From positions 10,382-74,381 of the forward strand of contig NZ_FNWJ01000002.1 of assembly GCF_900108055.1 (NCBI RefSeq): 64,000 nt of DNA. The letters run 5' to 3'. The stretch is from Thermoleophilum album (GTDB taxonomy: Bacteria; Actinomycetota; Thermoleophilia; Solirubrobacterales; Thermoleophilaceae). Of the stretch, positions 44,569 through 46,805 are shown one piece after another; positions within the stretch are counted from its first letter, which is position 1, and each line of letters begins with the position of its first letter. A program made the position numbers and the translations under genes. The notes below the pieces were generated by a model. It did no database searches, had not been told where the DNA came from, and saw nothing but the letters and a program-made list of their open reading frames with translations.

Positions 44569-45231
44569 ATGGTCGCCCGCCTCCTGACCAGCTTCAGCCG
44601 TTTCCTCTGCCGTAACGACGCCGAACGGGGCCGCCTGATCGACGTCAACCGCCGACTCCGGATCGCGTCGCAGGGGTCGATCGCCCTCTTCCTGGTTGCC
44701 GGCTTGATTGGGGTACCAACCTTCGGGCCGCAGTACCTCTTGCCGGTACCAGGGGCGCTCGCGCTCTTCTGGTGGATGCAGCGTTCACTGCGACGATCGC
44801 CCCGTCCCGAGCTGCGGCTGGCAGCCGCTTGGTTGGTCTCTGAAGTCGCGATCGCCGCTGCGATTGTGCTCGCAAAGGGACCGTCGCTGCACCTCTTGCC
44901 GGCGCTGACGCTGCCCACGCTGCTCGTCAGCGCCGTCTTCCCGACACGCGTCGCTGTCGCTGGCATGTTCGCGACCTGGGCGCTGATCGCCGCCACCGGC
45001 TTGCTTGCCGATCCGAAGCTGGTGCTCGAGCAGCCGCCCTACCTGGCCTATCCCGCCGGTGTGCTGGGGTCGCTGACCATGCTCTTCTCGATCGGCCGCA
45101 GCGCGGACCTCGCCTCGCGCGCCGGCGCGATCGTCGACCGCCTAACCGGCGCCTTCAACCGGGCGGCGCTGATCCCGCGACTTGCCGAGCTCTCCCACCG
45201 GTCGCAGCCTCTGGGCGGCAGGTGGCGGTGA
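44569..45231 (+). CDS. N-terminal part of a frameshifted membrane-GGDEF tandem protein
   Basis: A 220-codon frame behind AAGGGG. Five or six hydrophobic segments (ASQGSIALFLVAGLIGV; ALALFWWMQ; LAAAWLVSEVAIAAAIVLA; LLPALTLPTLLVSAVF; VAVAGMFATWALIAATGLLA) are followed by the first helix of a GGDEF domain (AIVDRLTGAFNRAALIPRLA). It then goes out of frame at about 45213 and stops at 45231. The missing remainder of the domain continues in the frame at 45222. Adding one base in the GGG run at 45213-45215 joins both into a 745-residue protein. Either a real mutation, a sequencing error or a recoding site. Confidence 0.8.
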   Translation: MVARLLTSFSRFLCRNDAERGRLIDVNRRLRIASQGSIALFLVAGLIGVPTFGPQYLLPVPGALALFWWMQRSLRRSPRPELRLAAAWLVSEVAIAAAIVLAKGPSLHLLPALTLPTLLVSAVFPTRVAVAGMFATWALIAATGLLADPKLVLEQPPYLAYPAGVLGSLTMLFSIGRSADLASRAGAIVDRLTGAFNRAALIPRLAELSHRSQPLGGRWR

Positions 45232-46805
45232 TCATCGGCGACCTCGACGGTTTCAAGTTGATCAACGACAGTCACGGCCACAAGGTCGGCGACCAGGTTC
45301 TGCGCGAAGTTTCCGAGCGGCTGCGCCGGGAACTCGGTCCTTATGTGCCGCTCTACCGCTTTGGCGGCGAGGAGTTCCTGGTGCTAGTCCCCGATGCTTG
45401 CGAGCGCGACGCGGTCGCGCTAGCTGAGCACTTGCGCAGAGCTGTGCGCTCGGCGCCGCTGGCGGGTCTGCGCGTCACGATGTCGTTCGGTGTCGCTTGC
45501 GGCGGCCGCGACGGGCAATTCGACTTCGACGAGGTGTTCCGCGAAGCCGACGCCGCGCTGTACGCGGCGAAGCGCCGCGGTCGCGACCGCGTCTGTTCGG
45601 CGGGCACCTGCCCGGAGGCCGCGCTGCCGCGCCGGCGTAGCAACGACGTGGAGGTGCCCGAAGGCGCGGCTGCGGTCACCACGCGTGCGATCGAGCGCGA
45701 CGGGCAGACGCCCCGCACGGCGCTCGGCGAGCAGATCGAGAGCGCGCGCGCCGAGCACGGAAACTGGCTAGTGCGCGACGAGCTGGAGCGCGAGCACATG
45801 CTCGACATGCGCGACCGCCTCGAGCGGGTCTCGGCGCTCGCCTGGCTCGTCGGCGGGGCGTCGGTGATCTTCGCTGTGCCCTGGTACGGCTGGGCGCCGG
45901 TGCTGGCGGTGCTGCTCGTTGCACCTCCATTCCGGGTGCTGTCGGCCAACCTGCGCAAGATGCGTCGCCCCGAGTTCCCGTTGATCGCTGGCTGGACGAT
46001 CGCCCAGCTGGTGATGGGGCTCGCCTTCCTGTACGTCGACGGGCGACCGCTACACGCGCTGATCGTCTTGATCCCGTTCGCGAGTATCTACGCGATTGTG
46101 TTGCCTCGGCGCGGTGCGATCTGGACCGGCCTTTTCAGTGCTCTGGTGATGATCATGGCGGCTTTGATCTGCGATGCCGAGCGGGCGCTCGCCGAACCCG
46201 CCCTCGTGGCGATTCCGCTGGCGCTGCTCGGTACGGGCTGCCTGGTCGGGTCGGTCGTCGGCAGCTCGGCCGTCGCCCACCGCTCGGTGGCGGTGATCGA
46301 CGAGCTAACCGGCCTCTTCAACCGGCGCGCGCTCGAAGCGCGGATCGCCGAACTGATGGCAGGTAGCGAGGGCGGCGAACAGCAGGTCGCACTGATCGTC
46401 GGTGACATCGACCACTTCAAGCAGATCAACGACACGCATGGTCACGCGCTCGGCGACAGGGTCCTCAGCGAGGTTGCGCAACGTCTGCGCGACTCTTTGC
46501 GCGCCTTCGACGCCATCTACCGCCTCGGCGGCGAAGAGTTCGTGATCTTGCTGCCCGGCACTGACGAGCAACACGCCGAGCAGGTCGCGGAGCGTCTGCG
46601 GCGGGCTATCGCCAAAGAGCAAATCGAGGGCCTCGAGGTGACGATGTCCTTCGGTGTCGCCGCCTCACGCGAGGGCGTGCGCTTCGACTTCGATCGGCTG
46701 TTCGTGGAGGCCGATTCGGCGCTCTACGAGGCTAAGCGCGGGGGACGCGACCGCGTTGAGGTGCGCAGGGTGCCCGAGAGCGAGTTGGCCACCGCGGCCG
46801 CCTGA
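45222..46805 (+). CDS. C-terminal part: GGDEF + membrane region + GGDEF (diguanylate cyclase)
   Basis: Continues the first GGDEF from VAVIIGDLDGFKLINDSHGH through YRFGGEEFLVLV, followed by a linker, a second membrane module (ALAWLVGGASVIFAVPWYG; FPLIAGWTIAQLVMGLAFLY; IVLIPFASIYAIVLP; IWTGLFSALVMIMAALI) and a second GGDEF (VIDELTGLFNRRALEARIAE; YRLGGEEFVILL). The second domain has an RAFD inhibitory site five residues before GGEEF; the first does not. The two halves are clearly homologous, so the gene is an internal tandem duplication. Synthesises cyclic-di-GMP if functional. The GTG at 45222 is not a natural domain boundary, so this frame is probably not expressed on its own. Confidence 0.85.
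   Translation: MAVIIGDLDGFKLINDSHGHKVGDQVLREVSERLRRELGPYVPLYRFGGEEFLVLVPDACERDAVALAEHLRRAVRSAPLAGLRVTMSFGVACGGRDGQFDFDEVFREADAALYAAKRRGRDRVCSAGTCPEAALPRRRSNDVEVPEGAAAVTTRAIERDGQTPRTALGEQIESARAEHGNWLVRDELEREHMLDMRDRLERVSALAWLVGGASVIFAVPWYGWAPVLAVLLVAPPFRVLSANLRKMRRPEFPLIAGWTIAQLVMGLAFLYVDGRPLHALIVLIPFASIYAIVLPRRGAIWTGLFSALVMIMAALICDAERALAEPALVAIPLALLGTGCLVGSVVGSSAVAHRSVAVIDELTGLFNRRALEARIAELMAGSEGGEQQVALIVGDIDHFKQINDTHGHALGDRVLSEVAQRLRDSLRAFDAIYRLGGEEFVILLPGTDEQHAEQVAERLRRAIAKEQIEGLEVTMSFGVAASREGVRFDFDRLFVEADSALYEAKRGGRDRVEVRRVPESELATAAA

Follow-up and report, generated by a model that had tools for sequence, protein, structure and literature searches.

An open reading frame that enters a GGDEF domain and stops, and a second, overlapping frame that resumes the same domain, raise the question of whether Thermoleophilum album carries at this locus two genes, one gene read through a programmed shift, or one gene that has lost a base. 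The locus lies in a 64,000-nucleotide stretch of contig NZ_FNWJ01000002.1, hereafter the window, and its features are collected in Table 1. Both frames of the initial annotation are present in the sequence. Frame 1 begins at an ATG (44569) with a good Shine-Dalgarno-like sequence ahead of it and encodes the first membrane domain and the beginning of the first GGDEF domain (GGDEF1), of which it holds about the first 25 residues before continuing out of frame to a TGA (45229-45231). Frame 2, of 527 residues when counted from its listed GTG at 45222, is open upstream as far as 44844; it encodes the remainder of GGDEF1 followed by another membrane domain and another GGDEF domain (GGDEF2), the two GGDEF domains being matched by PF00990 with 252 bits in hmmscan. 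Taken together, the evidence makes it very probable that the two frames belong to one conserved gene, which encodes a membrane diguanylate cyclase of two tandem modules and lacks one base near 45199, through a plain frameshift that is either very recent or only apparent, and not through a programmed frameshift or a slippage switch.

Table 1. Features of the interrupted diguanylate cyclase gene (positions in the window).
Feature	Position	Strand	Basis or remark
Shine-Dalgarno-like AAGGGG	44557..44562	+	6 bases 5' of the start codon; sequence; duplex -6.5 kcal/mol
Frame 1, 220 aa	44569..45231	+	Homologous to the sister species up to 45198
Membrane domain 1, about 5-6 hydrophobic helices	44650..45108	+	Hydropathy; no Pfam family (hmmscan)
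Most likely site of the missing base (best 45199/45200)	45196..45204	+	tblastn, gap in MAFFT DNA alignment, breakpoint scan
Possible restart: Shine-Dalgarno-like AGGTG (45220-45224) and GTG (45228-45230)	45220..45230	+	Inferred from sequence and duplex energy
Frame 2: remainder of GGDEF1, linker, membrane domain 2, GGDEF2	45222..46805	+	PF00990 twice
GGEEF active-site motif of module 1 (RxxD absent upstream)	45363..45377	+	Alignment
Membrane domain 2, about 6 hydrophobic helices	45810..46259	+	Hydropathy
GGDEF2 domain (PF00990)	46290..46754	+	GGEEF 46527-46541; RAFD inhibitory site 46500-46511

In the sister species of the same genus (G001; a single contig of 2.11 Mb), one open frame of 832 codons spans both halves. 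The orthologue measures 747 aa from its ATG and is 76% identical to the first half and 79% identical to the second, and the neighbouring genes keep their order over most of the window. Because the sister frame is continuous at the same place, the ancestral gene was one continuous frame; an intact orthologue in the same position in a relative is what marks the gene in the window as frameshifted. The comparison with homologues proposed in the initial annotation thus bears out its broken GGDEF frame, as a one-base break relative to the sister gene. No copy of the cyclase gene was found in the third genome of the genus, which is 72% complete, and the position of the break is read against one close relative, the sister species. 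In the window, the gene is flanked on one side by a cation-efflux transporter gene and on the other by a TldD/PmbA-like pair. The latter consists of two adjoining TldD/PmbA-family genes with overlapping ends (47766-50497), and a 21-base tandem repeat of 4.6 copies with 86% matches (47000-47096) is found just 3' of the cyclase gene.

The break had originally been placed within CTGGGCGG at 45211-45218, described as a G run, and this position is not supported by the sister alignments. When the window is searched with the sister protein (tblastn), homology follows frame 1 until 45198 and frame 3 from 45201, and the MAFFT DNA alignment of the two species has its gap there as well. When every possible breakpoint was scored, 45199/45200 came out best (BLOSUM62 979, 551 identical bases) and 45196-45204 scored nearly as high. 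Placed in the G run, the break would reach a BLOSUM62 score of at most 959, which is 20 half-bits below the best, with 543-545 identical bases (6-7 fewer aligned). In addition, between 45199 and the G run the frame-2 residues VAASGR match the sister's IAGSGR, whereas the frame-1 residues RSQPLG do not. These residues and scores indicate that the change of frame had been recognized correctly and located about 15 bases too far downstream. The supposed G run itself consists only of GGG and GG.

Neither half of the gene appears to have decayed. Relative to the sister species, dN/dS is 0.16 for the part 5' of the break, 0.10 for the remainder of GGDEF1, 0.13 for membrane domain 2 and 0.26 for GGDEF2; a search of the same alignment for relaxed selection or further lesions found dN/dS within this range of 0.10-0.26 and no other stop or frameshift, unlike what would be seen in a decayed pseudogene. 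The GGEEF motif is kept in both modules. Purifying selection on both halves and the lack of a second lesion indicate that the break is either very recent or an artefact. The frequency of such breaks was gauged from 464 kb of this genome set against 480 kb of the sister, a comparison in which approximately 274 sister genes are well matched. These orthologues gave eleven candidate frame breaks, with the cyclase being the only clear internal sense frameshift in the 464 kb; codon-phase tests identified the other candidates as antisense frames, poorly aligned regions and out-of-frame upstream extensions. This rate fits sporadic mutation and sporadic sequence error alike. The same test shows a gene (L163, approximately 16193-19045) that is intact here and has an orthologue in the sister species, near C1:1367900 (g2), that seems to be frameshifted.

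Four explanations had been offered for the break, namely a disabling mutation, a sequencing error, phase variation by slippage and recoding, and the first two are still viable. The latter two are both unlikely on the local sequence, as the break has neither a homopolymer longer than three bases nor a slippery heptamer. That slipped-strand mispairing in the G run toggles the cyclase on and off is hardly credible: the one-base difference is the only point in its favour, the break falls outside the G run, and the homopolymer or short repeat tract that such a switch needs is absent, with no run at or near the break exceeding three bases (45150-45259). A programmed -1 ribosomal frameshift linking the two halves is also very improbable, even though a shift anywhere in 44844-45231, where frame 2 is open, would encounter no stop codon. 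No heptamer of the form X_XXY_YYZ is located near 45199. The only one, AAAGGGA at 44874, is some 325 bases 5' of the break as placed by homology, in a region where the sister species retains the protein sequence of frame 1, and the aligned sister sequence does not contain this heptamer. Moreover, the shift is not conserved, given that the continuous sister frame needs none.

Within the plain frameshift, we judge sequence error and recent mutation to be of roughly equal likelihood, a judgement for which no figure was computed; both are sub-cases of the same reading, and the confidence assigned to each overlaps with that assigned to the whole. There is close to an even chance that the real gene is intact and that the base is absent only from the draft, through an error of sequencing or assembly, as would be consistent with the absence of decay both 5' and 3' of the break and the intact gene in the sister species. 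A precedent is provided by Vibrio fischeri ES114, in which 75 of 82 suspect loci proved to be errors of sequence, chiefly frameshifts, whose correction fused adjacent open reading frames (PMC2330054); there as here, the adjacent frames together make up one intact orthologue, with resequencing as the proof in that case and sequence comparison as the guide here. However, the remainder of this assembly is clean, at one clear case per 464 kb. Such errors usually arise in homopolymers, and the site is not one. No second sequence of the species was found, the genus being represented by three genomes only. A gapped pattern over the break gave no match among viral contigs, plasmids yielded only short GGDEF matches, and a scan of genome contigs for the cyclase returned distant GGDEF proteins only. 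A true and very recent inactivating mutation, after which module 2 may still be made through termination-coupled restart at GTG 45228, falls a little short of an even chance. The whole genome (2.2 Mb) encodes GGDEF domains at high density, with 19 matches, so the loss of one cyclase may be tolerated. The GTG overlaps the TGA of frame 1 (GTGA), and the AGGTG just upstream would pair with the anti-Shine-Dalgarno sequence at -10.2 kcal/mol, an energy reached by only 2.3% of 2,338 comparable out-of-frame stops (249 genes) in a test that is weak because it was chosen after the site had been seen; this broader figure is preferred to the 0.2% of an earlier, narrower simulation of 13 genes. Against a restart, the site was sought after the fact and an in-frame start is common near such stops by chance, being present at 78% of them. 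Degenerate diguanylate cyclase genes of Shigella flexneri are likewise interrupted with GGDEF-coding sequence 3' of the break, and are reported to make c-di-GMP and to be expressed still, as several proteins, in keeping with internal starts (PMC11327459); expression was shown in that case, whereas here the restart is predicted from sequence. An unusually good Shine-Dalgarno-like site at an overlapping stop would also fit a settled two-protein arrangement, which counts against a plain frameshift. It is nevertheless improbable that the break is both real and settled, with the duplicated cyclase divided through the stop/start overlap at 45228-45231 into a first protein that would be membrane-only and a second with an inhibitable cyclase.

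If the break is real, it would cut the protein within GGDEF1, leaving a first product of membrane domain 1 and a truncated, presumably inactive GGDEF domain, and restart at GTG 45228 could yield a product of some 525 aa containing membrane domain 2 and a complete GGDEF2. The intact protein has the attributes of a diguanylate cyclase: GGEEF in both modules, PF00990 matches far above the curated cut-off, and RxxD in module 2. This protein presumably uses its membrane domains to sense a signal and synthesizes c-di-GMP, and product inhibition would be retained in module 2 only. The RxxD product-inhibition site is common in the GGDEF family and is not required.

The two modules, each a membrane domain followed by a GGDEF domain, are homologous, as initially annotated, with 31% identity between module 1 and module 2 (E 3.3e-21). 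In a tree of 26 modules they are sisters (100/98), and both modules of both species form one clade with this support, apart from the single-module relatives of the order. This grouping indicates that the duplication took place in this lineage and is older than the separation of the two species. The claim that RxxD is confined to the second module also holds, module 1 having GPYV at that place in the window and GPYT in the sister species, and module 2 and the single-module relatives carrying RxxD or RxxE upstream of the GG(D/E)E motif. As the site is absent from module 1 in both species, its loss is older than the frameshift. The further proposal of split roles after duplication is supported only as far as this loss, which is common to both species and precedes the break.

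In overall plan, the protein resembles GGDEF diguanylate cyclases (PF00990, TIGR00254) of the type of Escherichia coli DgcC/AdrA (PRK10245), which likewise have N-terminal membrane helices followed by a GG(D/E)EF domain. It differs from these in having two whole modules in tandem, the first GGDEF domain being without an inhibitory site, and in a membrane domain that matches no Pfam family. Relatives with a single module are found in the same order (e.g. L013-L022); they possess the same membrane domain and GGDEF domain and are 38-43% identical to module 2, but have one module, in every case with an RxxD or RxxE inhibitory site. Double membrane and GGDEF proteins are also encoded in another family of the order (L200, 39-2324 and 2095-4791; L201, 235-2559); these have a different membrane domain and GGDEF domains that read RRGGDEF, with two copies side by side in L200.

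The frameshift matters little beyond annotation, where both open reading frames are one gene, to be flagged as frameshifted. The double-module cyclase, which in two species has retained the inhibitory site in one copy and lost it from the other, is a modest natural example of divergence within a protein after duplication.
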